Shown here piece by piece: positions 11,379 through 25,810 of a stretch of DNA of 25,810 bases (position 1 is its first letter; every line of letters starts with the position of its first letter). Both the position numbers and the translations under genes were made by a program. The notes beneath the pieces are model-generated. The model was given only the letters and a program-made list of their open reading frames with translations, did not search any database and was not told the DNA's origin. Source of the DNA: Nitrospirota bacterium (GTDB lineage Bacteria; JACPQY01); assembly GCA_016180645.1 (NCBI GenBank), contig JACPAV010000059.1:1-25810 (forward strand), in the 5' to 3' direction.

Positions 11379-11796
11379 TGCACTGCTTGAGATCGTGGGC
11401 GCTTGGGTTCAAAAGGCCGAGAATGATCTCAAGAACGCGACTCTGACGCTGAAGTTCGAAGACGACTGTCCGACCGACACCGTTTGCTTCCATGTTCAGC
11501 AATGTGTGGAGAAGTACCTCAAGGCGTTCCTCACCCATCGCGGAATCGATTTCCCGAAAGTACATGACCTCAAACGGATCGTCGCACTTCTGCCTCCGGA
11601 ACTTGCAATCCCTCTGAGTCCAGGAGACCAGGACAGGCTCACCGAGTACGCCACTGTGATGCGGTATCCAGGGGACTATGAGCCCATCGGCCTGAAGGAG
11701 GCCCGTCGGGCGGTGCGGACGGCGCGACACGTTCGGAAGATTATCAGGGGGAAACTGCCCAAGGAAGCCCTGACGCGTCGCCGGGCAAAAGCCTGA
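11365..11796 (+). CDS. hepT: HEPN-domain toxin (HepT-like)
   Basis: A 143-aa all-helical protein with the typical HEPN strings AWVQKAENDLKNA (14-26), FHVQQCVEKYLKAFL, KVHDLKRIVALLP and YATVMRYPGDYEPI, followed by EARRAVRTARHVRKII. HEPN toxins are RNases with an Rx4-6H motif. Here the best candidate is around RRAVRTARH, which has an H but is not a textbook match, so catalysis is not certain from sequence. The ATG lies inside the end of the nucleotidyltransferase gene, giving tight translational coupling as expected for a toxin-antitoxin pair with the antitoxin first. It ends with TGA. Confidence 0.85.
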   Translation: MPDPDALLEIVGAWVQKAENDLKNATLTLKFEDDCPTDTVCFHVQQCVEKYLKAFLTHRGIDFPKVHDLKRIVALLPPELAIPLSPGDQDRLTEYATVMRYPGDYEPIGLKEARRAVRTARHVRKIIRGKLPKEALTRRRAKA

Positions 11797-11844
11797 GATC
11801 CGACGGACTGTTCGAGTCTATCTCCGGGTAGATCCCGGACCCTC
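11797..11844. other. short spacer before right repeat copy
   Basis: These 48 nt between the HEPN stop and the right copy of the long direct repeat contain no recognisable signal. Confidence 0.3.
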
Positions 11845-12026
11845 GCGGACCTTGGCCATCCTCTCCTGGGTGTTTGTGGTCCAGGAACTCGCTTGTCGGC
11901 TTGCTGGGCTCCCGATCATTGCGGCTGGGCGTGCCCGGGATAGGGTCTCATGGCCTGATGACGGCCGCCAACGCCGGGAGCGCGACGTCGGTCGGGGAGT
12001 CGGACAGGACTCGACGGGGATGTTCA
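11845..12026. repeat. long direct repeat, right copy
   Basis: Second copy of the repeat at 10534-10715, in the same orientation and about 90% identical, with scattered substitutions and one or two single-base indels. Recombination between the copies would delete the whole MNT/HEPN pair and leave one repeat. Confidence 0.8.
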
Positions 12027-12183
12027 TCGTGAGGGTGAAACCCGAGGATGGGGGATCAAGTCTGTAGTACATTTCCAAGCTCCAACGCGATCACCTTGTG
12101 CCCATTCAAGATTCGACCTTGCCCGTTCTGCGTGCAATGGTCTCCGATGGTCCCCTCGTCGCCCTTGACGAATCCCCGGTGCG

Positions 12184-12828
12184 ATGCCATTCTACTCAGA
12201 TAGCAAGAGTGCTACTGTCATGAAATGGATGGAGATTGACAAGATCGTGGCCCGGTCCGGCCTGCGAGCGTTCACCGATCGCGAATTCCGCGCCGTCACG
12301 GGGACAACGGCCATGTCGGCGAAGTTCATGCTCATCCGGTACACCCGCCGCGGCCTTCTCAAACGTCTCAAGCGCGGCCTCTATGCGGTTGAAGGCCGGC
12401 TCCCGCCCAAGTGGGCGCTCGCCAACCGGCTCTATCAACCCTCTTACATCTCCCTTGAGTCGGCCCTCTCGTACTACGGGATCATCCCCGAAACCGTCTA
12501 CTCCGTCACCTCCGTCGGCACGAAAAGTACCCGCGAGTTCGAGGTCCTCGGTACGCGCTATCTCTTCCGAACCGTCACGCGCCGTGTCTTCACGGGATAC
12601 CGCAACGTGGAGATCGAAGGGCAGCCCGTGCTCATCGCCGAGAAGTCCAAGGCCCTCGCCGACTACCTTTACTTCGTGTTTCTCAAGAAGGCGCGTCTCA
12701 ACACCCGACTCCGGCTGAAAGCCGTCAGCCGGCGCGACCTGATGAACAGTCTGGAGGCGTTTGGAAACGCCCGCTTCCTGCGGTGGTTCAAGCATGATCT
12801 CACAGTCTCAGATCACCGAACTGAGTGA
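12184..12828 (+). CDS. abiEi: AbiEi-family antitoxin (type IV toxin-antitoxin)
   Basis: A 214-aa protein. The N-terminal part (about 20-70) is a winged-helix domain: FTDREFRAVTG...RRGLLKRLKRGLYAV. It is followed by the typical AbiEi core PSYISLESALSYYGIIPE (87-104) and TVYSVTSVGTKSTREFE. In this family the N-terminal domain represses the operon and the C-terminal domain counters the AbiEii nucleotidyltransferase. The start is uncertain. The ATG at 12184 has no ribosome binding site, and the ATGs at 12220 and 12229 also lack a strong one; the conserved domain begins after all of them. The gene overlaps abiEii by 35 nt. It ends with TGA. Confidence 0.85.
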   Translation: MPFYSDSKSATVMKWMEIDKIVARSGLRAFTDREFRAVTGTTAMSAKFMLIRYTRRGLLKRLKRGLYAVEGRLPPKWALANRLYQPSYISLESALSYYGIIPETVYSVTSVGTKSTREFEVLGTRYLFRTVTRRVFTGYRNVEIEGQPVLIAEKSKALADYLYFVFLKKARLNTRLRLKAVSRRDLMNSLEAFGNARFLRWFKHDLTVSDHRTE

Positions 12829-13519
12829 CCGCTGGCAGACTCCCGAGTCCAACGTGGCGCGGGAATTCGTCCAGCACGTGCTCCTGTGCGCTCTTTTCCA
12901 GATCAGGGGCGCGGACTCGAAGCTCGCGTTCAAGGGCGGGACGGCTCTCCACCTCCTGAGACGCAGCCCGCGATTTTCGGAGGATCTGGACTTCACGGCC
13001 TGGGCCAGGCCGTTTCACATAGGAGAGTGGATCAAGCAAGCGGCCAAGGAAGCCGGGCGGGCGGGGCTCAACTTCAAGACGGTCGAGTCGAACCCGACCT
13101 CGGGAGGGTGGTTGGCGCTGACGGAGACGCGCGTCCACGACTGGCCCGTTCAAATCGAATGGAATGTCTCCCTCCGAGGCGGGAGAGTCTCCCCCGCGCA
13201 CGAGACCGTCCTCGTCACAACCCCTCTCTGGACACCGTACACGGTCACCGCCCTTTCAATGGACCAGATGGTCCAGGAGAAGATCGAAGCCTTGCTCCGG
13301 CGACAGGAGCCGCGGGACTTCTTCGACCTCTATTTCGTGATCCGCGAGCGCCTCGGAATCAAAAAGATCGTCGCCCGGAAGGAGAAGTTGCTCCGCCTGG
13401 CACGGGAGATCAACCTCAGAGCGGCCGCAAGGGAACTGAAAGAATTCCTGCCGCGGACCCATTGGGCGGTCATCAAGCAACTCCCCAAGATCCTCTCCCA
13501 AGAGATCGAGCGCTTGTAG
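12794..13519 (+). CDS. abiEii: AbiEii-family nucleotidyltransferase toxin
   Basis: A 241-aa protein when started at the ATG at 12794; an in-frame ATG at 12761 is further inside abiEi and less likely. Motif I is FKGGTALHLLRRSPRFSEDLDF, with KGGT at 47-50 and SEDLD at 62-66. Motif III-like strings are QMVQEKIEALLRR and PRDFFDLYFV. AbiEii/MenT-type enzymes transfer nucleotides; some mycobacterial relatives modify tRNA acceptor ends. That would be notable next to a tRNA array, but the substrate of this protein is unknown. The gene overlaps and follows the cognate antitoxin. It ends with TAG. Confidence 0.85.
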   Translation: MISQSQITELSDRWQTPESNVAREFVQHVLLCALFQIRGADSKLAFKGGTALHLLRRSPRFSEDLDFTAWARPFHIGEWIKQAAKEAGRAGLNFKTVESNPTSGGWLALTETRVHDWPVQIEWNVSLRGGRVSPAHETVLVTTPLWTPYTVTALSMDQMVQEKIEALLRRQEPRDFFDLYFVIRERLGIKKIVARKEKLLRLAREINLRAAARELKEFLPRTHWAVIKQLPKILSQEIERL

Positions 13520-14153
13520 CCTGCACGGCCTGGAAGACCACTGCCTGAGACTCGGGCAGCTTCCGTCGCTCGCGTACGGCGGCATTCGTGCGGCCACGAG
13601 TTCAGGATTTGGCCTCAAGACAAGTTCGTCAACCACTGGACGCTGGCACGGGAGACCTGGAGGCAGGGGAAACGGTGCATCAGGGCGATCGGTTTCGACG
13701 CATCCGAGACGCGAAGGACCTACCGGGTCTCAACCTGCTTCAGGCGGATGAACGGCCTGAGGCGGACGCCGCCGCCGTTGTCCATCATCTGACTGTCGTA
13801 ACGCGCAATGTGCGCGACATCACGCGTTACGAAAATGGGGGATCCGAAATACGCGCATTGGTAACCGCTCATCGAGCGGGGCCTGACGCGCTCCGACTGC
13901 ATTGCCCGAATCCGCGAGGAGAGACTGAGCCTGCCCCCAGAAAAGCTCCTGCTTCTTCTGCCCGGTGATGAAGCGCCAGGAGATCCTCGACCTGCACGCT
14001 CGTCATCCGTATCTTGTGCGGCGGGCTCTACAGATGGAGGAAAAATAGGCAAAAAGCTCCTAGGCCAAGGGATCGACGCGGGGCTTGGCCCCAGAGACGG
14101 AGTTGGAAAGAGATCCTGCTCTAGGAAGAAGAGAGAAGAAGGACGGCTTCGCT
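13520..14153. other. 634-bp region with toxin-gene debris
   Basis: Apart from the VapC-like remnant (13700-13870) I see no gene. Several open frames exist on both strands because the region is GC-rich, but none has both a ribosome binding site and a recognisable domain. Confidence 0.35.
13700..13870 (+). pseudogene. VapC-like PIN toxin, C-terminal remnant
   Basis: One plus-strand frame reads GDRFRRIRD, followed by ADAAAVVHHLTVVTRNVRD and ITRYENGG. This matches the end of VapC PIN domains, where a D-x-x-x-A-A-x-A segment precedes HxLTxVTRNxxDF and the last acidic active-site residues. The N-terminal half with the first catalytic Asp is absent, and there is no VapB-like gene in front. I therefore read it as the debris of another toxin-antitoxin module in this island. 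Confidence 0.5.
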
Positions 14154-14354
14154 ATGGAACAAGCCGACGGGAACGGAGGCCATGGGGCCGACGACGCTCC
14201 CATGACGCCTTCCGCTGACGGGATTCTCGATCGTCTGAAGCTCGACGGAGCCCTCCTCAAGGAGAATCCCAAGAACGGACGCCGGGAGTTCATTCACGAG
14301 CCGACGGAAACGTATCTCGGATACCTCGGTCGAGGCCGGACCGGGCGGCGCTGA
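14154..14354 (+). CDS. possible small hypothetical protein
   Basis: A 66-codon frame (MEQADGNGGHG, then GILDRLKLDGALLKENPKNG) with a purine-rich stretch GAGAAGAAGGACGG 10-25 nt upstream. The second half looks like an ordered, charged helix and the first part is Gly/Asp-rich. I know no related family, and a 77-codon frame on the other strand is equally open. It may not be a gene. Confidence 0.25.
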   Translation: MEQADGNGGHGADDAPMTPSADGILDRLKLDGALLKENPKNGRREFIHEPTETYLGYLGRGRTGRR

Positions 14355-14452
14355 AGTATTGAATCCCTGGGATTGATCGAATGCGGCTCGAAGACGGTCC
14401 GTCCTGACATTTTGGAAACAGACGCCTAAAGCGTGACGGCTGTCGAGAGGAC

Positions 14453-16198
14453 CTATCGCAATCGGCAAGCTGGTTTCGGGCGAAGAGCCATGAAGCTGGA
14501 GATGTACCGCTCAGCTTGGCCCTTGGAAAGCTTGGCCTTCCGGAGCTCGCCGGCGGAAATGGTCGAAAGCCTCGATAGAAGGCCCACCTGACGATCCGTC
14601 ATCGGGTCCGGACTCCGCCTCCATTTGGCCCTGGCATTCGAAACTTCGATCAAATCACGATCGACGTGCAGGGGCAGCAGCCTCTCGAGGGCTTTTATGG
14701 TCTCGTCTTGAGATCCCGCGACCGTCAGAGTCTTTCGGATTCCGTTCTCCGTCTCCAAGACCGCACAGAAGATGCTCCCGTGTTGGGCGATGGAAACCGT
14801 GCTCCCACCGACCAAGCTCAAGAAGACTGCCCCACCAGGAAGTTTCAGAAATGGGAGGCCGGTGACGCGGTCCAAGACGTCGCTGATACGCCACTCCTCG
14901 TGTGGCTCGCTGAACGAAGGTGGCTCATATCGATTGATCAACCTTACGAGCGTGTGATGGAGCGCCTGACGCGTTCTCGCGCGCCGCGCGTTCTCAAGGT
15001 TGGCGGCATGCTCGGCCATCAGCTGTCCGTTCGGGAAATCTCCATCTTCCCCGGTAAAGTGCATAGGCACCTTCGGGCAGCTCCGGCTATGGCGTTGGTC
15101 GATGAGCTGAATCACGATCGCGTAGGCTTTCCCCGGCCAAGTGCGCAGGGTGCGGCCGACCTGCTGAAGCATGAGGACACGCGCTGAGAATTCCGTGAAG
15201 GGTCGCAGAAGGAGAACACAACGCACCTGCGGACAATCAAACCCTTCGGCCAGCAACCCACACGTCACCAAGACTTGGATTGCCCCCTCCCGAAACGCCT
15301 CCAAGATCTCCAGCCTTTCCTTTCGGCTGAGCTTGCTGTGGATTGCGCGAGCCGCCAGTCGCTCCCTCCGGAACCGCTCGGCCACCGACTCTGCGTGCAC
15401 GATATCCGCGCAAAACGCGATGGCCTGCTCATCTTCTCCCCACTCCAGGTACGCCTCGAGAGCCATTTGATTCCGCCAGTCAACATCAACCTTCTGCCCA
15501 AGATTTCCCGGATGAAAATCTCCTTCCTGGCCGACGCTTACTTCTGAGACATCCATGAATGTATTGCGACCGTAGAAACGGCCGTCGACCAGATGCCCCA
15601 TCTCGATGAGCTCTCGCAGGCCCAGGTAAGACACAATTGGACCGAACTCAGTGAGGCAGACCCCATCACCTCGGACCGGTGTAGCGGTAAGGAGCACAAG
15701 AAACGATTCCTTATACACATCACGCCACCTGCGGAAACTATGGGCCAGCATATGGTGCCCTTCATCCATCACGACCGTATGGAAAGATTCCGGTGCGAGG
15801 CCCCCTGGAGGCTTCTGAGCAAACACACTCGCTATCGCAATGTCCTCGCCGCGACTCACGTTGACTTGCGGTGAGAAGCTCACCCTGTGGCCGGAGGCAC
15901 CGTGCCGCATGCGGGTCACCTCGTGCAGTTTTTCCGCCCACTGCCGAAAGAGCACATCCTGATGAGCGAGGACAGACCCATAGGGGCCGGCCTTCTCACA
16001 GGCGAGCGTAAGGATCGACGCGCCGACGTCGGTCTTGCCGGCGCCGGGCGGCATCACAAGGACCACGGTCTTCCCGACTTCGTGCAGCCGGAGCGCAACA
16101 TCCACGGCTTCGAGCTGATAAGGTCGAAGCCGCCATTGGCTTAGTGCATGCTGAGCCATAGGGTTTCCACGGCAGTTTGGGACCGCTTCTCCGGGCAT
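14453..16198 (-). CDS. superfamily 2 DEAD/DEAH-type helicase
   Basis: About 581 aa with a complete set of SF2 motifs: a Q-like RPYQLEAVD, motif I PPGAGKT (about 50-56), motif II DEGHH, motif III TATP, motif V VTCGLLAEGFDCPQV and motif VI QQVGRTLR. The order and spacing fit the RecG/XPB/type III restriction-like group that begins with a 'LRPYQ' helix. The C-terminal 180 residues (after PKVPMHF) are not recognised; they end with a helical segment containing TDRQVGLLSRLS and ELRKAKLSKGQAERYI, similar to small domains at the end of some phage and mobile-element helicases. I chose the ATG at 16198; a TTG at 16207 and an ATG at 16159 are alternatives, none with a strong ribosome binding site. No nuclease or methylase partner is adjacent, so a full restriction system is not supported. 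It ends with TAG. Confidence 0.8.
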   Translation of the reverse strand: MPGEAVPNCRGNPMAQHALSQWRLRPYQLEAVDVALRLHEVGKTVVLVMPPGAGKTDVGASILTLACEKAGPYGSVLAHQDVLFRQWAEKLHEVTRMRHGASGHRVSFSPQVNVSRGEDIAIASVFAQKPPGGLAPESFHTVVMDEGHHMLAHSFRRWRDVYKESFLVLLTATPVRGDGVCLTEFGPIVSYLGLRELIEMGHLVDGRFYGRNTFMDVSEVSVGQEGDFHPGNLGQKVDVDWRNQMALEAYLEWGEDEQAIAFCADIVHAESVAERFRRERLAARAIHSKLSRKERLEILEAFREGAIQVLVTCGLLAEGFDCPQVRCVLLLRPFTEFSARVLMLQQVGRTLRTWPGKAYAIVIQLIDQRHSRSCPKVPMHFTGEDGDFPNGQLMAEHAANLENARRARTRQALHHTLVRLINRYEPPSFSEPHEEWRISDVLDRVTGLPFLKLPGGAVFLSLVGGSTVSIAQHGSIFCAVLETENGIRKTLTVAGSQDETIKALERLLPLHVDRDLIEVSNARAKWRRSPDPMTDRQVGLLSRLSTISAGELRKAKLSKGQAERYISSFMALRPKPACRLR

Positions 16199-17121: not shown

Positions 17122-17198
17122 GACATAGTGAGACGCTCCGCTTTCTCGCCTTTTCCTCATTCGGATTTTCGCGGGGGCGGGGAGGGTCTCACTATGTC
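17122..17198. repeat. 13-bp inverted repeat forming a long hairpin upstream of the RNA ligase
   Basis: GACATAGTGAGAC (17122-17134) and its exact complement GTCTCACTATGTC (17186-17198) are separated by 51 nt. The stem can extend imperfectly inward through CTCCGC and GCGGGGAG. The loop contains a pyrimidine-rich part followed by GCGGGGGCGGGG. It lies 63 nt before the ligase start codon. It could be a miniature element with terminal inverted repeats, an attenuator or a terminator of readthrough from the left; there is no T-run to support a simple terminator. Confidence 0.6.
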
Positions 17199-17261: not shown

Positions 17262-18443
17262 ATGCAAACGCTTGCCGGATACTTCGCGGAGCACAACCTC
17301 TTTGACGAGACGACCCTTCGGGAGCACGGCCGGGCGCGCGGCGTCCGGGTGGCGACCTCTCCGCGGTTTCCCCACCTCAGACTTCTGGAATATGGCACCC
17401 TCGTGCAGATCGAAAAGATCCCGTGGGACCTCTTCAACCGGCGTTGCCGCGGCATCGTTGTCGACTTGGAGAGGAAGCGCCTCTTGGCCTTTCCCTTCCA
17501 CAAGTTCTTCAATCTCGGGGAAAAGCCTGAAACGGCGGTCAACCGCCTCCTTGAACTGGGCACCTTCACCGCCACGGAAAAACTGGACGGATCGATGGGC
17601 ATCCTCTTCTACGACGAGGCCTCAGGACGCTTCCACATCACGACTCGGGGGAGTTTCGACTCGACGCAGGCCCTATGGTCCTCGGAGCGCATTCCGGCCT
17701 CCGTGCAGGACACCAATCTCGTCGAGGCCTACACTCTGATTTTCGAGATCATCGCCTATCGGGTTCGGGGTCTCGATAACATCATCGACTATCGTAAGAA
17801 AGGTTTGGCCGAGGGCCTGTATCTCGTGGGGATGCGCCACCGGATCTCCGAAACTCTTCTTCCCCACGCCGAGCTCTTCCGCTTTGCGAAGGCGCGGGGT
17901 CTGCCCACACCGAGGGTCCATGCGTTCGCTTCTCTCGATGCCTGCACGTCGCATGCGAAGACCCTCGATTGGATGGATGAAGGGTTCGTGCTGGAGTTCC
18001 GCGACGGCACGCTGGTCAAGGTGAAGAGCCCCGAATACTTGAGAGTCCACCGGTTCGTCTCGGGGTACAGCGATCGCAGGGTGCTGGAAGCCCTGCGTGA
18101 CGGGAAGTCCGACATCATGTTGGCGGGCGTGCCGGAGGAGTACCGAGGACCGGTGGAGGCGGACTTCGAGAAGTGGCGACGGAAGGCCCTGGATCTCCGC
18201 AACGAGGCTTATGCGCAGCTCGCGCGCGCCCCGCAGGGCGACCGGAAGGCCCTTGCCTTGTGGTGCAATGAGCACGTTGCCCACCATCTGATCCCGTTCG
18301 TTTTCCTTGCCCTGGACAACCGACTCACTCTCGATGGGTTGTACGGATATCTCCTGAAGGGGCTCGGACCGGGGGAAACGGATCGGAGGAACTTGGCCCG
18401 GGGAAGCCGGCCGGCAGATTCCGGGGAGCCTCCCGAAGGGTGA
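17262..18443 (+). CDS. T4 Rnl1-like RNA ligase
   Basis: A 393-aa protein, close to the 374 aa of T4 RNA ligase 1, with the family motifs in order. CRGIVVD (63-69) and FPFHKFFNLGE (77-87) come before motif I EKLDGS with nucleophile K107. Motif III is in VEAYTLIFEIIAYR (about 154-167), motif IV is EGFVLEF (E240) and motif V is VKVKS (K253, K255). In the family the enzyme forms a lysine-AMP and seals 3'-OH to 5'-phosphate RNA ends. T4 Rnl1 repairs tRNA cut in the anticodon loop by a host anticodon nuclease. No polynucleotide kinase/phosphatase partner is visible here. The stop overlaps the GTG start of the recombinase-like gene (GTGA), so both are expressed together. A tRNA array with unusual anticodon loops lies 3.2 kb downstream on the opposite strand. 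Confidence 0.88.
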   Translation: MQTLAGYFAEHNLFDETTLREHGRARGVRVATSPRFPHLRLLEYGTLVQIEKIPWDLFNRRCRGIVVDLERKRLLAFPFHKFFNLGEKPETAVNRLLELGTFTATEKLDGSMGILFYDEASGRFHITTRGSFDSTQALWSSERIPASVQDTNLVEAYTLIFEIIAYRVRGLDNIIDYRKKGLAEGLYLVGMRHRISETLLPHAELFRFAKARGLPTPRVHAFASLDACTSHAKTLDWMDEGFVLEFRDGTLVKVKSPEYLRVHRFVSGYSDRRVLEALRDGKSDIMLAGVPEEYRGPVEADFEKWRRKALDLRNEAYAQLARAPQGDRKALALWCNEHVAHHLIPFVFLALDNRLTLDGLYGYLLKGLGPGETDRRNLARGSRPADSGEPPEG

Positions 18444-19315
18444 AAACGTTCGCGCAGGCTGCGCTCTTTCCGACGGAAGCCCCGCTGGATCCGACCCTTC
18501 CGGATCTGCTGCCTTTCTATCGGGACCACCTGATTGCTTCGAAGAAGAGCCATCACACCGTGGCCAGCTATCTGAGGATCCTTCGATCGTTCGTTCGGGA
18601 TGCCGGGGCCGGCCGGCGACTCAACGCCTACTCGGTCCGGACGATCGAGGCGTACATTGCCCGGGTCCGATACGGAGACGGCGCTGACAAGACGGTGGAG
18701 CTGAACGCCGCGGCCCTCCGGCACTTCTTCCGGTGGGCGAGGGAAAACGAGTTTATGAGGGAGGATCCGGGCCAACGGCTCATCTTCCCCCGTGCGCAGA
18801 TCAAGCTCCCGGAGATCCCATCCATCAAAGAGGTGGACAAACTCCTGGAGACCGCGGCGGTTGACCCCCACGATCTTCTCCTGCTCCTCCTGTTCGCTGA
18901 AGGGGGCCTCAAGCGGGAGGAGGTCCTGGCGCTCCTGCCAAAGCATGTAAACGTGCGACATCCGCTCCACGTTGAAATCACCGTCCCGGCGTCCAGTCCG
19001 AGGAAGGTTCGAGTCGCGCGGATTCCGAGGGACTACGCGGTGGTGATTGAGGCGATCCTGGAAGAGGCCCACCCCGAGATCCCCGTTTGCACCTTCTCCC
19101 CGCCGTCGGTCTCGGCTCGTGTAGAGGCGATGGGACGCCTGGCAGGAGTCCGCCCTAGGATCACGCCGGCATCTCTCAGGCACTTCTGCGCGGTGAGGAT
19201 TCTGAAGGCGGGGAGAACTATCGACGAAGTCCACGCCTATCTCGGGCTCGCCTCACCTAAGGACAGCCCGATCATGCGGGACATCTACGTCACCCTCGCG
19301 AAGCTTCCTCTGTGA
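18440..19315 (+). CDS. XerC-like tyrosine recombinase, catalytic residues degenerate
   Basis: A 291-aa protein with the size and two-domain plan of XerC/XerD. The SAM-like N-terminal domain is at about 22-110 (LLPFYRDHLIASKKSHHTVASYL, ALRHFFRWA) and the catalytic domain follows. The active-site boxes are altered. Box I reads EGGLKREEVLAL, with Lys where Arg is expected. Box II reads TPASLRHFCAVRIL, with Ala instead of the first His but the Arg kept. The GH box is YLGLAS. The nucleophile region still has Tyr (RDIYVTLA). An Arg-to-Lys change in box I would normally abolish strand cleavage, so this may be an inactive DNA-binding partner or a gene with a new role. It starts at GTG, overlapping the ligase stop by 4 nt. 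It ends with TGA. Confidence 0.8.
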   Translation: MKTFAQAALFPTEAPLDPTLPDLLPFYRDHLIASKKSHHTVASYLRILRSFVRDAGAGRRLNAYSVRTIEAYIARVRYGDGADKTVELNAAALRHFFRWARENEFMREDPGQRLIFPRAQIKLPEIPSIKEVDKLLETAAVDPHDLLLLLLFAEGGLKREEVLALLPKHVNVRHPLHVEITVPASSPRKVRVARIPRDYAVVIEAILEEAHPEIPVCTFSPPSVSARVEAMGRLAGVRPRITPASLRHFCAVRILKAGRTIDEVHAYLGLASPKDSPIMRDIYVTLAKLPL

Positions 19316-19455: not shown

Positions 19456-19911
19456 GTGGCAAAATCAAAGAGAAAGAAAGCCAGGGGCAAGGTCATCCTG
19501 GCAGGTGAGTACGCGCGCAAGTCACTAACCGCGCTCAGACCGTCGTCGATCAACGATCTTGTCAAGAAAGTGAAGGCAGTCACCGGGCGCAGACTCGCGT
19601 TTGCAACGGCGAAGGCCCTGTATCAGGAGTTCCGCGCCAAAGTGGGTGCTCCCGCTCCGACGGCGGACAGGCCCGCACCACGTGCGCGTCGTGCCCCGGC
19701 CCGCCGGCCATCGGCTGGACAGAACGGCGAGCAGTACCTGGTGGTAACCCGGGATCGGGGCTTTAGGCTTGAAGTCCTGCGCTACATGGACAAGGGGCAG
19801 GCGGAGAGAAAGGCAACCGAGATGATCGGAGCGGGGCGAAAAACGCGCGTCCTGGTCGCGAACACGCGAGCATCGCATCGCGCTGAGAGAGGAGGTTCAC
19901 ATGGTAGATAG
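19456..19911 (+). CDS. basic hypothetical protein
   Basis: The gene encodes 151 aa starting with GTG, with a strong ribosome binding site GAAGGAGGATG upstream. It has three parts. The N terminus is Lys-rich (MAKSKRKKARGKV) and runs into a short ordered region (SINDLVKKVKAVTGRRLAFATAKAL). The linker is rich in Ala, Pro and Arg (about 68-93). A compact C-terminal part (EQYLVVTRDRGFRLEVLRYMD) follows. The pattern suggests a nucleic-acid-binding protein, but I do not recognise a family. The last codons overlap a possible 24-codon gene that has its own strong ribosome binding site. It ends with TAG. Confidence 0.6.
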   Translation: MAKSKRKKARGKVILAGEYARKSLTALRPSSINDLVKKVKAVTGRRLAFATAKALYQEFRAKVGAPAPTADRPAPRARRAPARRPSAGQNGEQYLVVTRDRGFRLEVLRYMDKGQAERKATEMIGAGRKTRVLVANTRASHRAERGGSHGR

Positions 19912-20394: not shown

Positions 20395-20862
20395 ATGAGA
20401 AAACATTCCCGGCCGTTCAATCTTGCGGTGGACGAGCAATTTCCAAGCCTGGAAACTCACCCGCTCGTTCGCCGTGCCCGGAGGGCACCGGTCGGCCGAC
20501 AAATCCGGTGGATCCGTCTGAGGATCGGGATGACCCAGAAACAACTGGCCCGAAGGGCGGGGATCTCGCAGCAACACGTAGCTCTCTTGGAGAAGGACGG
20601 CTCACAAGCGGAGCTCAGGACGCTGACCAAGGTGACCGAAGCGCTGGAGTGTACCCTCGCCGTTCTCGTCTCCCCGCGCGACAAGTTGAGTCGCATGATC
20701 CGCAAGCAAGCGGAGAAGGTTGCCGGAAAGAGACTCTCGAAGGTGATGGGGAATATGGCGCTTGAGGGCCAGGAGCCTTCATCGGCGATGTCGAAGCGGC
20801 TTCTTGAAGACGAGATCAAGAACCTCTCGATCAAACCATCTTCGGAGCTCTGGGAGGAATGA
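20395..20862 (+). CDS. XRE-family regulator, 'mobile mystery protein A' type
   Basis: The gene encodes 155 aa. A Cro/C1-type helix-turn-helix occupies about residues 35-90: RQIRWIRLRIGMTQKQLARRAGISQQHVALLEKDGS, then LRTLTKVTEALECTLAVLVSP. This is followed by a helical region ending IKPSSELWEE. The domain and its pairing with a Fic gene directly downstream match the pair annotated in many genomes as mobile mystery proteins A and B. It likely represses its own promoter, where a 12-bp dyad lies between the -35 and -10 boxes. The same dyad in front of the 185-aa HTH gene suggests a second target. The stop overlaps the Fic start (ATGA). Confidence 0.85.
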   Translation: MRKHSRPFNLAVDEQFPSLETHPLVRRARRAPVGRQIRWIRLRIGMTQKQLARRAGISQQHVALLEKDGSQAELRTLTKVTEALECTLAVLVSPRDKLSRMIRKQAEKVAGKRLSKVMGNMALEGQEPSSAMSKRLLEDEIKNLSIKPSSELWEE

Positions 20863-21467
20863 AGCCGACCTTGAGACAGCCGGAGGGCGCCACGCCGCTG
20901 ACGGATGTCTCCGGACTGTTATTGGAAAACGTTGCGACCCTCGACGCGCTCAACGTTGTGGAATCGGCGAATATCCTTGACGCAACCCGGGAGCATCTTC
21001 GACGGCGGCATGGCTCCAAGAGGAGATGGATCACCGTGGCGTATCTGTTGCGCGTACACCGCGACATGTACGGGGAGGTTTGGCGCTGGGCGGGCGAAAT
21101 TCGCCGGACGGAAAAGAACATAGGCATCGAAGCGTACCGGATCCGAGAGGAGTTGGAGAAACTGTGCGGCGACGTGAACTTCTGGGATACGCAGGAAACG
21201 TCGATGCCGGTCCTCGAAAGAGGCGTGCGCATTCACCATAGACTGGCCTGGATACACGCGTTCGAAAACGGCAACGGACGCCACGCCCGACTCATGGCGG
21301 ATATCTATCTCCATGCACATCGCCAGCCGCTCCCCGAATGGCCATCGAGCAACCTCGTAAAAGTCGGCAACGCCCGCAGATCGTATCTGGAAGCCATGAG
21401 GGCGGCTGACGGCGGAAATGTGGAGCCGCTCCTCCAACTCACTGCACGCTTCATCAAGAGCGCCTGA
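20859..21467 (+). CDS. Fic-domain protein, 'mobile mystery protein B' type
   Basis: The gene encodes 202 aa with the Fic core HAFENGNGRHARL (H133 to R144), matching HxFx(D/E/N)GNGRxxR. The upstream part (ESANILDATREHL, ITVAYLLRVHRDMYGEVWRWAGEIR) is typical of this subfamily. Fic enzymes usually transfer AMP from ATP to a hydroxyl on a target protein; the target here is unknown. An inhibitory helix is not obvious by eye. It is translated from the same operon as the XRE regulator, with a 4-nt overlap. The two genes act as a unit that travels on mobile elements, and here they sit at the edge of the tRNA array. It ends with TGA. Confidence 0.88.
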   Translation: MKPTLRQPEGATPLTDVSGLLLENVATLDALNVVESANILDATREHLRRRHGSKRRWITVAYLLRVHRDMYGEVWRWAGEIRRTEKNIGIEAYRIREELEKLCGDVNFWDTQETSMPVLERGVRIHHRLAWIHAFENGNGRHARLMADIYLHAHRQPLPEWPSSNLVKVGNARRSYLEAMRAADGGNVEPLLQLTARFIKSA

Positions 21468-21593: not shown

Positions 21594-21667
21594 CGGTCCC
21601 GGCCGGACTTGAACCGGCTTTCTCCGCCTTGACAGGGCGGCGTCTCGACGGCTTCGACTTCGGGACC
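21594..21667 (-). tRNA. tRNA-Asp (GTC)
   Basis: Acceptor GGTCCCG/CGGGACC with G73; anticodon stem CCGCC/GGCGG around CTGTCAA; T loop TTCAAGT. All arms pair. CCA is not encoded. It is the last gene of the array in transcription order. Confidence 0.92.
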
Positions 21668-21778: not shown

Positions 21779-21853
21779 TGGTAGCGGGTCCAGGATTTGC
21801 ACCTGGGATCTCGTGGTTATGAGCCACACGAGATACTACTTCTCCAACCCGCG
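21779..21853 (-). tRNA. initiator tRNA-fMet (CAT)
   Basis: Loop CTCATAA. The first base pair is a C1/U72 mismatch, the mark of initiators (usually C/A). T loop TGCAAAT has G at 55. A73 is followed by encoded CCA. The anticodon stem is TGTGG/CCACG, not the usual three G-C pairs. No elongator Met tRNA is present in the array. Confidence 0.88.
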
Positions 21854-21890
21854 ATCAGAAACTCGACGATTGAATGGTGTGTGGTAGGTT

Positions 21891-21914
21891 ATCGCTCGCG
21901 CATTCGCGGGCGAT
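21891..21914. repeat. strong hairpin between tRNA-Cys and tRNA-fMet
   Basis: ATCGC-T-CGCG-CATT-CGCG-G-GCGAT forms a 9-bp stem with one internal T/G mismatch and a 4-nt loop. No T-run follows, so it is not a simple terminator. It may be a processing signal or a decayed hairpin element. Confidence 0.5.
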
Positions 21915-21943
21915 CTTCGTAGAAGGACTCCGCGCCCATCCGG

Positions 21944-22014
21944 ACACGGCTGCGGGAGTTGCACCCGCCTGATGTGGGTTGCAGCCACACGCCTACCTGC
22001 TCGGCCAAGCCGTG
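21944..22014 (-). tRNA. tRNA-Cys (GCA)
   Basis: Acceptor CACGGCT/AGCCGTG, U73; anticodon stem TGTGG/CCACA with loop CTGCAAC; T loop TGCAACT (G55). The first pair is C-G rather than the usual G-C. CCA is not encoded. Confidence 0.88.
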
Positions 22015-22066
22015 ATCAGATGGACGCAGACTACAGTTCGATAGATGCTTCATCACGTTGCCTCCG

Positions 22067-22139
22067 CTGGGGAGGTGAGTCTCGATCTCACAACTTCCTG
22101 ATTAACAGTCAGGCCCGTTGCCAATTGCGGTACTCCCCA
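22067..22139 (-). tRNA. tRNA-Asn (GTT)
   Basis: Acceptor TGGGGAG/CTCCCCA, G73; anticodon arm CCTGA-CTGTTAA-TCAGG; T loop ATCGAGA, with A54 in place of U. A 48-codon frame with a GGAGGAGAGGAG ribosome binding site runs through the gene on the same strand. Confidence 0.9.
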
Positions 22140-22229
22140 GCGCAGACCACGCACCAGAAAGTTCCTATTGCTCGGACCCAGTTTCTTCATGCTGTTCATG
22201 GTACTCCTCTCCTCCCGATTGTCAAACTG

Positions 22230-22302
22230 CGGGGGTCGGGAGACTCGAACTCCCACGAGCCGTTTTGGAGACGGCGCGGCTATCCTGTTACCACAGACCC
22301 CC
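22230..22302 (-). tRNA. tRNA-Trp (CCA)
   Basis: Acceptor GGGGGTC/GACCCCC, G73; anticodon arm GCCGT-CTCCAAA-ACGGC; canonical T loop TTCGAGT. Confidence 0.92.
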
Positions 22303-22306
22303 TAGC

Positions 22307-22378
22307 TCGGCGCGGGTGGACTCGGACCACCATCAGTCGGTTATAAGCCAACCGCTCTAACCCTTGAGCTACACGCCG
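22307..22378 (-). tRNA. tRNA-Ile (TAT)
   Basis: Acceptor CGGCGTG/CGCGCCG, A73; anticodon arm GTTGG-CTTATAA-CCGAC; T loop TCCGAGT (C55). Most bacteria read AUA with a lysidine-modified CAU tRNA, so a genuine UAU anticodon is uncommon. Confidence 0.88.
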
Positions 22379-22385
22379 TAACCTT

Positions 22386-22475
22386 CGGAAGCTGAGGGAA
22401 TTGAACCCCCGTCCCATCACAGGCGGGATTCCCCTTAGCAGGGGGATGCGACAAACCGACAGTCGCCTACCTTCC
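22386..22475 (-). tRNA. tRNA-Ser (GCT)
   Basis: Type II tRNA of 90 nt with a long variable arm (TCCC...GGGA). Anticodon arm TCCCC-CTGCTAA-GGGGA; T loop TTCAATT; acceptor GGAAGGT/AGCTTCC with one G/G mismatch; G73. Confidence 0.88.
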
Positions 22476-22482
22476 CAAACTG

Positions 22483-22554
22483 AGCCGAGGGACGGTTTCG
22501 ATCCGTCATCTCCGCATTACGGGTGCGGTGCTCTGCCGACTGAGCTACCCCGGC
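22483..22554 (-). tRNA. tRNA-Thr (CGT), C33
   Basis: Acceptor GCCGGGG/CCTCGGC, U73; anticodon arm CCGCA-CCCGTAA-TGCGG, so position 33 is C; T loop ATCGAAA (A54). Confidence 0.88.
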
Positions 22555-22558
22555 ATTG

Positions 22559-22632
22559 AGCCGCCGGTCGGGGTCGATCCGACACCTTTCCGCTTACAGG
22601 GCGGATGCACTCCCTTGTTGTGCTACGGCGGC
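22559..22632 (-). tRNA. tRNA-Thr (TGT), C33
   Basis: Acceptor GCCGCCG/CGGCGGC, U73; anticodon arm TCCGC-CCTGTAA-GCGGA with C33; T loop ATCGACC (A54). Confidence 0.88.
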
Positions 22633-22639
22633 GTAAACG

Positions 22640-22711
22640 TGTGGGAGGCGGGGGTCGATCCCGCGTATCCGGCTTGGAAGGCCGGTGCCTGATCCGTTCG
22701 GCCACTCCCAC
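22640..22711 (-). tRNA. tRNA-Gly (TCC)
   Basis: Acceptor GTGGGAG/CTCCCAC, A73; anticodon arm CCGGC-CTTCCAA-GCCGG; T loop ATCGACC (A54). Confidence 0.9.
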
Positions 22712-22718
22712 ATAACCT

Positions 22719-22790
22719 TGCGCGGGGCCGGCCTCGATCCGGCATGGACCTGTGCGTAGGACAGGCGGCTCTCCATTCACCTACCCACGC
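22719..22790 (-). tRNA. tRNA-Val (TAC), C33
   Basis: Acceptor GCGTGGG/CCCGCGC, A73; anticodon arm CCTGT-CCTACGC-ACAGG with C33 and G37; T loop ATCGAGG (A54). The 7-nt loop fixes TAC as the anticodon; an ACG (Arg) reading would need a shifted loop. Confidence 0.82.
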
Positions 22791-22797
22791 TCAAACT

Positions 22798-22869
22798 TGT
22801 GGGAGACAGGATTCGCACCTGCGTGATCCGACCTGGCAAGCCGGCGCCTGACTTCTAGGCTACTCCCAC
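22798..22869 (-). tRNA. tRNA-Gly (GCC)
   Basis: Acceptor GTGGGAG/CTCCCAC, A73, identical to the TCC gene; anticodon arm CCGGC-TTGCCAG-GTCGG; T loop TGCGAAT (G55). Confidence 0.9.
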
Positions 22870-22872
22870 TCA

Positions 22873-22944
22873 AGCCCCCACGGAGCGTCGATCTCCGGTC
22901 GCCACGTTACCGATGCGGTGCTCTGCCGACTGAGCTACAGGGGC
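22873..22944 (-). tRNA. tRNA-Thr (GGT), C33
   Basis: Acceptor GCCCCTG/TGGGGGC, U73; anticodon arm CCGCA-TCGGTAA-CGTGG with one A/C mismatch at 31-39 and C33; T loop ATCGACG (A54). Confidence 0.83.
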
Positions 22945-22950
22945 GCAAAT

Positions 22951-23039
22951 TGGCGGAAGGGGAGGGATTCGGACCCTCAACGCCCTTTCGAGCGCACCCG
23001 CTTTCGAGGCGGGCCGACTACCCGTTATCGCACCCTTCC
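22951..23039 (-). tRNA. tRNA-Ser (CGA)
   Basis: Type II, 89 nt including an encoded CCA after G73. Acceptor GGAAGGG/CCCTTCC; anticodon arm CCCGC-CTCGAAA-GCGGG; T loop TCCGAAT (C55). Confidence 0.9.
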
Positions 23040-23044
23040 AAACT

Positions 23045-23131
23045 TGGCGGTGAGAGCAGGAATCGAACCCGCGACGGATTTCCCGTTCTCCGCTTCCAAC
23101 GGAGCGCCTTCAACCGCTCGGCCATCTCACC
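23045..23131 (-). tRNA. tRNA-Ser (GGA)
   Basis: Type II, 87 nt including an encoded CCA. Acceptor GGTGAGA/TCTCACC, G73; anticodon arm CTCCG-TTGGAAG-CGGAG; canonical T loop TTCGATT. Confidence 0.92.
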
Positions 23132-23137
23132 ACAATT

Positions 23138-23224
23138 CGGTGGAGGCGGGATTCGGACCCGCGTCCGCCGGTCGGCGGAATCCGTTTTCAGGACGGACGG
23201 TTTCAACCACTCACCCACTCCACC
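23138..23224 (-). tRNA. tRNA-Ser (TGA), C33
   Basis: Type II with variable arm TCCGCC/GGCGGA. Acceptor GGTGGAG/CTCCACC, G73; anticodon arm TCCGT-CCTGAAA-ACGGA with C33; T loop TCCGAAT (C55). Confidence 0.88.
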
Positions 23225-23230
23225 AAAACT

Positions 23231-23313
23231 TGGCCCCGCCAGGACTTGCACCTGGACGGCCTTCTCGGCCGGCGGGTCTTAAGCCCGCTGCGTCTCCGTT
23301 CCGCCACGGGGCC
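23231..23313 (-). tRNA. tRNA-Leu (TAA)
   Basis: Type II. Acceptor GGCCCCG/CGGGGCC, A73; anticodon arm GCGGG-CTTAAGA-CCCGC; variable stem GGCC/GGCC; T loop TGCAAGT (G55). No group I intron is present. Confidence 0.9.
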
Positions 23314-23349
23314 GGTTTCTCTCTTTCGTTGTCAAAGAACCGTCAAACT

Positions 23350-23432
23350 TACCCGGAGAGGGATTTGCACCCCCACGCCCGTTACGGCACCTGGGCCTGA
23401 GCCAGGCGCGTCTGCTGTTCCGCCATCCGGGT
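23350..23432 (-). tRNA. tRNA-Leu (CAG)
   Basis: Type II. Acceptor ACCCGGA/TCCGGGT, A73; anticodon arm CCTGG-CTCAGGC-CCAGG; T loop TGCAAAT (G55). A frame with ribosome binding site GGAGGAGAGG (ATG at 23500) runs into this gene on the same strand. Confidence 0.9.
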
Positions 23433-23684
23433 GTCAAACGTCTCGGAGTCGCGACTCGAATCCGGACGCCAAAAACTTCATCCCGTAGCACGGGGTTCAT
23501 TGCCTCTCCTCCAAAATGCAGGGACAGACCAAATGAAAACATTCCACGGTCACGGTTGGCTCCTCGAGTGTTTTGTTCGGGGGCTCGCCGCGACCTATAA
23601 GGTCTGCGTGCCGAGCGATCCGACTGTGAGCAGTATCGTGGCCGCGATGGACCACAACACTGATAGGACAAACGAGAAGGAGCC
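23433..23684. other. 252-bp gap inside the tRNA array
   Basis: I find no complete tRNA. Visible structure includes the 12-bp palindrome GAGTCGCGACTC (23445-23456), the hairpin CCCGT-AGC-ACGGG at about 23482-23494, and GACC-TATAA-GGTC at about 23591. On the minus strand the frame MNEKKKDPFFTN... (start 23795) passes through tRNA-Phe and ends here with a hydrophobic segment. A strong ribosome binding site plus ATG lies at 23500. A decayed tRNA cannot be excluded. Confidence 0.4.
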
Positions 23685-23757
23685 TGGCCACTCCAGGAAT
23701 CGAACCTGGCTCTGTCCCTTTTCAGGGGACCGCATCGACCACGGTTGCTCAGTGGCC
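23685..23757 (-). tRNA. tRNA-Phe (GAA)
   Basis: Acceptor GGCCACT/AGTGGCC, A73; anticodon arm GTCCC-CTGAAAA-GGGAC; T loop TTCGATT. The acceptor helix can extend by three more pairs into the flanks (CCT/AGG). Confidence 0.9.
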
Positions 23758-23834
23758 AGGTTCGTAAAGAACGGGTCTTTCTTCTTCTCGTTCATGTTCG
23801 TACCCTCATTGTGCCAGATTGAACTCCCAAGTCA

Positions 23835-23910
23835 ATGCCGGGGTGGGAATCGAACCCACGACCACGACGTTTAAGGCGTCGGCTCCGATGCCAACACAGA
23901 GTGCCCGGCA
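23835..23910 (-). tRNA. suppressor-type tRNA, anticodon TTA (UAA stop), Gln-like
   Basis: Acceptor TGCCGGG/CCCGGCA, U73; D arm CTCT...GGAG; anticodon arm CGACG-CCTTAAA-CGTCG; T arm GTGGG-TTCGATT-CCCAC. The centred 7-nt loop gives anticodon UUA with C33, A37 and A38. The D arm is nearly the same as in the neighbouring tRNA-Gln(CTG), and both have a U1-A72 pair, a Gln identity feature. A Leu (TAA) reading would need an off-centre loop, and the short variable region (TGGTC) is wrong for Leu. Predicted to read UAA and perhaps UAG. Confidence 0.75.
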
Positions 23911-23919
23911 ACTAACTTG

Positions 23920-23995
23920 ATCCCAGGGAAGGAGTCGAACCTTCAACCAACGGTTTCAGAGACCGTGCTCCGATGCCGGTACAGAGTGCCTGGGA
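23920..23995 (-). tRNA. tRNA-Gln (CTG)
   Basis: Acceptor TCCCAGG/CCTGGGA (U1-A72), U73; D arm CTCT...GGAG; anticodon arm ACGGT-CTCTGAA-ACCGT; T loop TTCGACT. Probable parent or sister of the UUA-anticodon gene 10 nt away. Confidence 0.88.
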
Positions 23996-23998
23996 ATA

Positions 23999-24072
23999 TG
24001 CCCCCGGCAGGATTCGAACCCGTATCTCTCAGTTACGGTGTTCCGGGTAGAAACCGGAGCCGGTACGGGGGC
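23999..24072 (-). tRNA. tRNA-Arg (TCT)-like, D arm missing, long variable region
   Basis: Acceptor GCCCCCG/CGGGGGC with A73, and a T arm (ACGGG-TTCGAAT-CCTGC, one mismatch). The only good anticodon arm is TCCGG-TTTCTAC-CCGGA. It leaves just 7 nt (TACCGGC) between acceptor and anticodon stems, and 18 nt in the variable region. Comparison with the Gln gene suggests the D stem was lost while the D-loop word TACCGGC was kept. Total length is normal (74 nt). It may be non-functional. Confidence 0.55.
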
Positions 24073-24079
24073 CTGAACT

Positions 24080-24151
24080 AGCCCTCGGCGGGAGTTGCAC
24101 CCGCACCCATCCGCTTAGGAGGCGGACCCCTGTCTGTTCGGGATCGAGGGC
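24080..24151 (-). tRNA. tRNA-Arg (CCT)
   Basis: Acceptor GCCCTCG/CGAGGGC, U73; anticodon arm TCCGC-CTCCTAA-GCGGA; D stem CCC/GGG; T loop TGCAACT (G55). Confidence 0.88.
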
Positions 24152-24177
24152 GGTACCTGGTTTTAGGAGTGAAGTGT

Positions 24178-24196
24178 CGGCGTAGAGGGACTACGC
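24178..24196. repeat. single hairpin with AGGGA loop, possible element remnant
   Basis: GGCGTAG-AGGGA-CTACGCC is a perfect 7-bp stem with the same 5-nt loop as one hairpin of the twin-hairpin insert in tRNA-Pro(CGG). It lies between tRNA-Arg(CCT) and tRNA-Tyr. The second hairpin is not evident. Confidence 0.5.
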
Positions 24197-24222
24197 CTGT
24201 CTTTGCCGGTGGGACCTGAACT

Positions 24223-24310
24223 TGGTGGAGGCGGCAGGACTCGAACCTGCGAAGAGGTTTCCCTCAACTGCTCTACAGGCAGCCGCATTTGCCGCTGATG
24301 CTACACCTCC
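24223..24310 (-). tRNA. tRNA-Tyr (GTA)
   Basis: Type II, 88 nt including an encoded CCA after A73. Acceptor GGAGGTG/CGCCTCC; anticodon arm CTGC-CTGTAGA-GCAG; long variable arm (GAGG...CCTC); T loop TTCGAGT. Confidence 0.92.
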
Positions 24311-24377
24311 GAAATCCTCGGAGTCCGCACCAGCAGTGCTATACAGCAGGTTCATCCGTGTCTTCATGCCGATGAGT

Positions 24378-24524
24378 CTACCTCTGTCTCGTCGCTTCGT
24401 CAATTTCCTTCTTCATGGCCTCTTCCTCGGCCCGAAGCTGAGGTGTCTTCTTGGGCGCCAAGCCCTTCTTGTGCGGCTTGCACAGGCCGCACGAGCGCCT
24501 CTTACGTTTGTACACGGCACCCAT
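24378..24524 (-). CDS. small Lys/Arg-rich CxxC protein inside the tRNA array
   Basis: The gene encodes 48 aa. It has a basic start, a CGLC pair followed by KPHKKG (MGAVYKRKRRSCGLCKPHKK), then APKKTPQLRAEEEAMKKEID. The 'SCxLCKPHK' pattern recurs, as far as I recall, in small uncharacterised bacterial proteins, so I think this is a real gene rather than a shadow. It is on the same strand as the tRNAs, between tRNA-Arg(CCG) and tRNA-Tyr, and fills an otherwise unusual gap. The frame is open for 16 more codons upstream, but those overlap the tRNA-Arg(CCG) 3' end, so I prefer the ATG at 24524. A role in RNA binding is only a guess from composition. It ends with TAG. Confidence 0.6.
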   Translation of the reverse strand: MGAVYKRKRRSCGLCKPHKKGLAPKKTPQLRAEEEAMKKEIDEATRQR

Positions 24525-24545
24525 GCCGAGATTGTCCCAAAAACT

Positions 24546-24638
24546 TGCCCTCGGTGGGCCTCGATCCCACAATCTTCAGGCTCGGAACCTGACGTGCCCC
24601 GTAATGCGGGGCGCGCGATCCCTTCGCACCGCGAGGGC
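24546..24638 (-). tRNA. tRNA-Arg (CCG) with extra hairpin before the anticodon arm
   Basis: The total is 93 nt. Acceptor GCCCTCG/CGAGGGC, A73; D arm GTGCG-AAGGGAT-CGCGC; anticodon arm TCAGG-TTCCGAG-CCTGA; T arm GTGGG-ATCGAGG-CCCAC (A54). Between the D and anticodon arms lies an extra hairpin, GCCCCG-CATTA-CGGGGC, plus three bases, where normally one base is found. The hairpin resembles GCCCCGC-AGGAT-GCGGGGC of the insert in tRNA-Pro(CGG). Confidence 0.75.
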
Positions 24639-24682
24639 GCGAAGGGGAAAAGAAAGGGGCACCCCTCTTTCCCCTCCAAACT

Positions 24683-24754
24683 TGGGACCGGAAGGAGTCG
24701 AACCTTCGACCTCTCGCATGTCGAGCGAACGTTCCACCGCTGAACTACGGTCCC
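24683..24754 (-). tRNA. tRNA-Val (GAC), C33
   Basis: Acceptor GGGACCG/CGGTCCC, A73; anticodon arm TTCGC-TCGACAT-GCGAG with C33; T loop TTCGACT. Confidence 0.85.
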
Positions 24755-24755
24755 G

Positions 24756-24827
24756 TGGAGCCGACTGGAATCGAACCAGCAGTATCGACAATGCCATTGT
24801 CGCGTGTTCCCGTTACACCACGGCCCC
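24756..24827 (-). tRNA. tRNA-Ala (GGC)
   Basis: Acceptor GGGGCCG/CGGCTCC, A73; anticodon arm CGACA-ATGGCAT-TGTCG; T loop TTCGATT. The usual Ala G3-U70 pair is present (G3 opposite T70). It is one base from tRNA-Val(GAC). Confidence 0.9.
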
Positions 24828-24835
24828 CAAAACTC

Positions 24836-24978
24836 TGCGGCTGGTGAGATTCGAACTCACACGCTGCTCCGTCCGTACCTGGCCAGGATGGCTTGGTACT
24901 GCGAGACGATGCAGCGCCAGGACGGCGCTGCATATAACCGCTGTAGCGGAGTGGCCTCTCCAATTGACCGACAGCCGC
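24836..24978 (-). tRNA. tRNA-Arg (ACG) interrupted in the anticodon loop
   Basis: The gene is 143 nt long. Acceptor GCGGCTG/CAGCCGC, A73; D arm GGTC-AATTGGAGA-GGCC; anticodon stem CTCCG/CGGAG; T arm GTGAG-TTCGAAT-CTCAC. The anticodon loop contains a 68-nt insert flanked by TAC. Removing it gives the loop CTACGGA, anticodon ACG, and a 75-nt cloverleaf. The insert is too short for a group I intron. Confidence 0.82.
24875..24942 (-). mobile_element. twin-hairpin insert, copy 1 (68 nt) in tRNA-Arg(ACG)
   Basis: Read with the tRNA it begins AGCGGTTATATGC and ends CCAGGTAC. Hairpin 1 is GCAGCGCC-GTCCT-GGCGCTGC. Hairpin 2 is GTACC-AA-GCC-ATCCT-GGC-CA-GGTAC. TAC occurs at both borders, so the exact cut point is ambiguous by three bases. 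The same family occurs twice in tRNA-Pro(CGG), in the opposite orientation. Confidence 0.85.
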
Positions 24979-24988
24979 GCAAACCTAC

Positions 24989-25389: not shown

Positions 25390-25412
25390 TCCCGAAGCAT
25401 GGATGCGACCAC

Positions 25413-25478
25413 TACAGCGTTATATGCAGGCCATCCTGGCCTGCTTCCTTTCGCAGTACCAAGCCGTCCTCGGCCAGG
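25413..25478 (+). mobile_element. twin-hairpin insert, copy 2 (66 nt) in the D loop of tRNA-Pro(CGG)
   Basis: On the plus strand it reads TACAGCGTTATATGC...GGCCAGG followed by TAC. Hairpin 1 is GCAGGCC-ATCCT-GGCCTGC. Hairpin 2 is GTACC-AA-GCCG-TCCT-CGGC-CA-GGTAC. It is closely similar to copy 1 (shared TTATATGCAG, CGCAGTACCAAGCC and GGCCAGGTAC) but is inverted relative to the tRNA that carries it. Confidence 0.85.
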
Positions 25479-25492
25479 TACACCACACCCCG

Positions 25493-25652: not shown

Positions 25653-25712
25653 ATCCCACCACCTGTCACTAGGTCGAAAACCTGCCTTCCGGCAGTGACA
25701 AGGTGGTGGGAT
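25653..25712 (+). promoter_or_regulatory. perfect three-way-junction palindrome overlapping a ribosome binding site
   Basis: A 12-bp outer stem ATCCCACCACCT/AGGTGGTGGGAT continues (one bulged A) into GTCACT/AGTGAC. It encloses two hairpins, AGGT-CGAAA-ACCT and GCC-TTCC-GGC. The right arm of the outer stem contains the purine-rich AAGGTGGTGGG and the first two bases of the next ATG, so the folded RNA would hide the start. It also lies just upstream of the tRNA array on the other strand and could act there. Confidence 0.65.
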
Positions 25713-25810
25713 GATGACAAAACACCTGCGCAAGCATCTTTCTGGTAAGGGTTGGAGTTCTGGAAAGACCCTTGCGCTTACCGTGCCGCTGGACGCGGGA
25801 CGGCGATGCG
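25711..25810 (+). CDS. start of an unidentified gene, cut by the window end
   Basis: Thirty-three codons are visible (MMTKHLRKHLSGKGW, then SSGKTLALTVPLDAGRR) and the frame is open to the end of the window. AAGGTGGTGGG precedes the double ATG. The start is basic and polar. Too little is present to name a function. Its ribosome binding site is part of the three-way-junction palindrome, and it is divergent from the tRNA array. Confidence 0.5.
   Translation, partial: MMTKHLRKHLSGKGWSSGKTLALTVPLDAGRRC

Follow-up and report, generated by a model that had tools for sequence, protein, structure and literature searches.

A T4 Rnl1-type RNA ligase gene overlapping a degenerate recombinase gene near a tRNA array on a Nitrospirota contig

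What an RNA ligase does beside a bank of tRNA genes in a bacterial genome is the question raised by this locus. The ligase of phage T4 repairs tRNA-Lys cut by the anticodon nuclease PrrC (PMC10264068), and the original prediction for the Nitrospirota sequence analysed here was that a ligase of the T4 Rnl1 type may repair or join the tRNAs of a nearby array. The window (25,810 nucleotides) is the entire contig C59 of a genome bin of 4.7 Mb (65 contigs, 97% complete), and no terminal overlap indicative of a circular contig was found. The features discussed are presented in Table 1.

Table 1. Features of the ligase operon, the tRNA array and the region between them (window positions)
Feature	Position	Strand	Evidence or remark
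Inverted repeat upstream of the ligase operon	17122..17198	.	18-nt arms, 94% complementary, 41-nt spacer
T4 Rnl1-type RNA ligase, 393 aa, ATG start	17262..18443	+	PF09511, phrog_562, PDB T4 Rnl1, AlphaFold + VIA
XerA/XerD-like tyrosine recombinase, degenerate, 291 aa, GTG start	18440..19315	+	Overlaps ligase by GTGA
151-aa protein, no family assigned	19456..19911	+	86% identical copy on C25
HTH protein, 'mobile mystery protein A' type	20395..20862	+	TIGR02612, E 3e-24, below cut-off
Fic protein, 'mobile mystery protein B'	20859..21467	+	TIGR02613, above cut-off
tRNA array, 31-33 genes, about 8 per kb, 10-11 with C33	21594..25649	-	ARAGORN + Rfam
tRNA-Arg(ACG), anticodon loop interrupted	24836..24978	-	Rfam tRNA, 37.9 bits over 143 nt
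68-nt twin-hairpin insert, 5' flank CTAC, 3' end GGTAC	24875..24942	-	
Second twin-hairpin copy, 87%, outside tRNA, opposite orientation, same CTAC 5' flank	25409..25481	+	
Last 99 bases of window, identical to last 99 of contig C25 (L004:7785-7883)	25712..25810	.	Assembly fork

The ligase matched the Pfam family RNA_lig_T4_1 (E 2.8e-15, 57 bits, cut-off 28), phrog_562 'RNA ligase' (E 1.8e-47) and, in the PDB, T4 Rnl1 (E 5e-7). As described, all nucleotidyltransferase motifs of Rnl1 were present, namely I (KLDGS, K107), Ia (TTRGS), III (LIFEII, E162), IV (EGFVLEF, E240) and V (VKVKS, K253 and K255), and residues K107, D109, G110, G130, E162, E240, G241, K253 and K255 were invariant in a 38-row alignment. 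The catalytic residues are intact, so no decay of the gene is visible. The AlphaFold model (mean pLDDT 91.8) was matched by T4 Rnl1 (5tt6) with a Z of 25.0 over 238 residues (VIA; rmsd 2.4, residues 3-265) and by fungal Trl1 ligase domains with a Z of ~20 (VIA). Alignment of the whole model to 2c5u extended up to residue 373, but with an rmsd of 11.7, and the C-terminal domain predicted alone had no clear match in the PDB, T4 Rnl1 included. The title of a reference in PMC11494293 attributes the tRNA specificity of T4 Rnl1 to its C-terminal domain. The score against NCBIfam TIGR02308, the T4 RnlA equivalog, was 38.6 bits (cut-off 242.25), and by this score the protein is classed as a relative, not as a T4 RnlA equivalog. 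The gene encodes an Rnl1-type ATP-dependent RNA ligase that is real, looks active and is probably functional. The name of phrog_562 also carries a second role, that of a tail-fibre attachment factor; with no phage structural gene recognised among the window ORFs searched, such a role is hardly conceivable here.

The overlap of the ligase with the next gene by GTGA was found as described, and the term 'degenerate' is correct for the recombinase (E 1e-24 against NCBIfam XerA), since alignment to XerA/XerD revealed replacement of Arg-I by lysine (GGLKREE, 155-161), of the HxLRH histidine by alanine (TPASLRH) and of the LGH histidine by leucine, with retention of the catalytic tyrosine (RDIYVTL). 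The complete catalytic R-K-H-R-H-Y set is therefore lacking, with three residues missing. The gene occupies the downstream slot where many ligase relatives have a kinase. No sigma-70-like promoter or terminator consensus was found upstream of the ligase. The overlap within one operon might point to a ligase that partners the recombinase and acts on DNA, for example by sealing recombination intermediates, and the ligase-recombinase pair does stop where homology to a second contig of the genome (C25) begins. This is very improbable, as Rnl1 and tRNA ligases far outscored DNA ligases as fold matches of the ligase model, the recombinase lacks Arg-I and two histidines, and no recombinase relative was found near the other ligase loci examined.

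Thirty array tRNAs were found by ARAGORN at 21779-25649 (3.9 kb), and Rfam added genes at 21594-21667 and 23999-24072 and the interrupted gene. The array is a tRNA array unit by the published definition of at least 20 tRNAs at a density of no less than 2 per kb (PMC5966550). The ligase had been called close to this array; the distance is about 3.15-3.2 kb, with four genes between them (recombinase, 151-aa gene, HTH and Fic) and the array on the opposite strand, so that the two are not transcribed together. The 99 tRNAs detected by Rfam in the genome comprise scattered host genes and two arrays, the second being on C25 (62346-67783). Gene order is partly common to the two arrays, with matched segments 68-93% identical. 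Given the identical ends of the two contigs, the arrays could represent either separate loci or variants from two strains. Outside the arrays, the contigs have mainly a 0.7-kb segment in common, which includes the 151-aa gene and begins at 19338, just past the recombinase; the C25 copy of this gene is about 9 kb from the second array. The window ligase was the sole ligase match in the genome and the paralogous C25 array is without one, which makes the ligase-recombinase pair accessory to the array.

Interrupted tRNAs had been proposed as a substrate for joining, and one real case was found, tRNA-Arg(ACG). The insert falls precisely within the anticodon loop. With the 68 nt removed, ARAGORN reported a tRNA-Arg(ACG) of normal form, whose loop CTACGGA is identical to that of the host tRNA-Arg(ACG). 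This favours excision of the insert as an intron and sealing of the halves by the ligase, but the second copy of the element lies outside the tRNAs, in opposite orientation and with the same CTAC flank, as for a mobile hairpin. In addition, a host gene makes this tRNA-Arg(ACG) redundant, its homologue on C25 has no interruption, and the tRNA array of an Elusimicrobia contig (L094, see below), with a ligase inside it, shows no comparably interrupted tRNA. With its two subterminal hairpins and fixed tetranucleotide 5' flank, the element resembles, and is possibly, a minimal IS200/IS605-type element. The insert thus looks like a mobile hairpin element rather than an intron, splicing of this tRNA by the ligase is very unlikely, and the insert was discounted as a ligase substrate. 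Among the loci examined for co-occurrence of the ligase and the twin-hairpin element, both clear copies of the element were those of the window.

The array was also said to carry anticodon-loop variants, and these were borne out. U33 is otherwise near-universal in tRNAs. C33 was present in 11 of the 30 window array genes called by ARAGORN, a count which includes one doubtful gene (Asn-ATT), compared with 1 of 44 host genes (p = 1e-4). When the Rfam-only genes were included, the count was about 10/31, with the position-33 register, which was automatically misplaced in the genes at 22307, 22873 and 23999, corrected by eye. C33 was present in 6/32 genes of the C25 array (Rfam-only genes added), in 6/25 of the L094 array versus 0/20 tRNAs in a sample of the same genome (p = 0.03), and in 13/251 genes of phage arrays. 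Altered anticodon loops of phage tRNAs have been predicted to be nuclease-resistant (PMC10264068).

Relatives of the ligase were obtained with alignments, whereas scanning the genome and viral collections with a single protein gave none; no ligase was found in the one other genome of the same phylum that was covered. A tree of 72 ligases placed the window ligase in a clade of eight (SH-aLRT 99), together with those of viral contigs L014, L015, L187, L315, L316 and L317 and of L094, a contig of an Elusimicrobia MAG. The L094 ligase (about 40% identity to the window ligase) lies inside a 25-tRNA array, its reading frame is broken near the C-terminal end, and the other genes of the contig are cellular-looking (radical-SAM-like, aminotransferase-like). 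L014 is a 193-kb viral contig with 33 tRNAs directly upstream of the ligase, whereas the 39 tRNAs of the L015 record are mostly elsewhere than near the ligase. An array beside or around the ligase was thus observed in three of the eight clade members, including both bacterial ones, which belong to different phyla. In this tree, whose branching order next to the window lacks resolution, L094 joins L015 rather than the window, so the ligase may have been acquired separately in the two bacteria. The phages L316 (120 kb) and L317 (108 kb) have no tRNAs, though ligase and HD-Pnk are present, which indicates that the ligase has no need of an array. A Fic protein is also encoded near the L014 ligase (L014:12472-13203), and is not similar to the window Fic at E 1e-3. 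In L007, a Rhizobium phaseoli plasmid, a distant Rnl1 relative adjoins rtcR, an RNA-binding protein gene and rtcB (7842-14602), placing two RNA ligases within one repair neighbourhood.

The viral ligase loci were compared with thyX loci, the control gene PhoH having yielded too few. Ten or more tRNAs within 10 kb were present at 10 of 80 viral ligase loci and at none of 79 thyX loci (p = 8e-4, a value which is optimistic because some loci are nearly identical, and which comes from phage genomes unmatched in size). At the lower thresholds of at least 1 and at least 5 tRNAs over the same distance, the two sets did not differ significantly. A Mycolicibacterium fortuitum plasmid with a distant ligase had no tRNA within 20 kb. 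The association of ligase and tRNA array is therefore recurrent but not obligatory, and the expected co-occurrence was upheld in part: L094, L014, L015 and the excess over thyX loci are in its favour, and L316, L317 and the ligase-free C25 array are against it. The relationship may simply reflect chance, the ligase being phage-derived RNA-repair cargo of a variable region which repairs other host RNAs or confers no benefit, and the array being separate cargo with which it does not cooperate. The C25 array without a ligase, the limited homology of the two contigs, starting only after the recombinase, the two clade phages without tRNAs and the four intervening genes are all compatible with this. 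The intact catalytic residues and the recurrence of the array in three of eight clade members, among them bacteria of two phyla, are less easily accommodated, and we consider a chance neighbourhood rather unlikely, though a serious alternative.

The lack of an end-healing enzyme, which the original prediction remarked upon, was confirmed for the contig. There is no kinase in the window and likewise none at the L094 locus, and an HD-Pnk profile retrieved only HD-domain proteins from the window genome (G000) and the L094 genome. In contrast, an HD-Pnk-like gene was present within about 8 kb of the ligase in each of the five phages of the clade that had sufficient flank; that of L014 has HD and AAA_33 domains. 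Of the ligase relatives, 24/80 viral and 48/80 genomic ones had a kinase or HD-Pnk gene nearby, which is an RNA-repair context, whereas none of the 79 thyX loci did. L198, the sole AAA_33 match above the cut-off, was rejected as a polynucleotide kinase, being zeta-toxin-like by eye. Rnl1 requires 5'-phosphate and 3'-OH ends (PMC11494293). With this requirement and no healing partner found, either the substrate would be ligatable on arrival or an unrelated enzyme would heal it. Metal-dependent nucleases such as PIN-domain VapC toxins leave 5'-phosphate/3'-OH ends.

The ligase is related to those of phage ligase and HD-Pnk cassettes, is carried without the healing enzyme and, in the best reading, would be phage-derived. 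The function that we favour, with a probability of roughly 0.5, is that the ligase and the spare tRNAs form a tRNA-rescue module. Under attack on translation by anticodon nucleases, the array would provide spare tRNAs, many of which may be poorer nuclease targets through their C33-altered anticodon loops, and the ligase, adenylated at K107, would reseal tRNAs whose anticodon loop had been cut. As the searches gave no partner for end healing, the expected natural substrate is one that carries 5'-phosphate/3'-OH ends already, as from PIN-domain VapC toxins. That the ligase repairs the array's own tRNAs is doubtful. Equally tentative is the wider proposal that bacteria took up a sealing-only Rnl1 with a C33-rich tRNA bank more than once, as a module for replacing and resealing tRNAs against VapC-like nucleases. 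Several observations count against the rescue module: L316 and L317 lack tRNAs; the ligase is 3.15 kb from the array, which is on the other strand; the C25 array has no ligase, though one ligase could act in trans; the C-terminal domain is unmatched alone; the RnlA cut-off was missed; and the L094 ligase frame is broken.

The T4 pair of Rnl1 (gp63) and Pnkp, which repairs tRNA-Lys against PrrC, has the same ligase fold and motifs (Z 25). It differs in that the window ligase has no kinase/phosphatase partner found and a C-terminal domain unmatched alone, and lies on a bacterial contig by a tRNA array, overlapping a recombinase gene. The phage Rnl1 and HD-Pnk cassettes (L014, L015, L187, L316 and L317) are the closest ligase clade (35-42% identity), but HD-Pnk is absent from the window and was not found in its genome, and most phages of the clade have no array beside the ligase. 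Like the window array, the tRNA array units described in mycobacteria and in their plasmids and phages (PMC5966550, PMC12803027) contain at least 20 tRNAs at a density of no less than 2 per kb, are redundant with the host set and have protein genes embedded or nearby. The genes named in those papers are HNH endonucleases and release-factor-like genes, whereas the window has an RNA ligase; 'RNA ligase' is absent from the text of PMC5966550 and 'ligase' from that of PMC12803027. In Anabaena, TrcR co-represses the tRNA array of a plasmid (the trn operon) and the RNA ligase RtcB (PMC10272220), a tie between array and RNA ligase under translational stress that is comparable to the window, but RtcB belongs to an unrelated kind of ligase and its gene is chromosomal, separate from the array. 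Jumbo-phage genomes contain tRNAs together with RNA ligases and kinases (PMC7824862), with tRNAs and an ATP-dependent RNA ligase per genome as here; those are phage genomes with kinases, whereas the window is a bacterial contig without one.

The current proposal for redundant tRNA banks in bacteria is a role in anti-defence. A sealing ligase by or in the banks of two unrelated bacterial genomes, together with the C33 excess, gives testable predictions for this proposal, namely that array tRNAs resist anticodon nucleases and that the ligase reseals those which are cut.

The surroundings of the ligase look like a variable region rich in mobile, defence and toxin-antitoxin genes. Upstream of the ligase are a RadD/XPB-like helicase gene and an AbiEi/AbiEii type IV toxin-antitoxin pair (12184-13519; PADLOC E 3e-41 and 3e-24), as well as two large overlapping genes on the minus strand (5766-10438), whose products of 756 and 801 aa have a tyrosine-recombinase domain at the C terminus. 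Fragments resembling RHS/YD repeats, apparently split over several frames, were observed at 34-1895, and a 183-base direct repeat (93% identical) at 10534-10715 and 11845-12027. Within the array, the tRNA at 23835-23910 (minus strand) has C33 and the anticodon TTA, which would read the UAA stop codon; it is similar to the neighbouring tRNA-Gln(CTG) and is possibly an ochre-suppressor tRNA.
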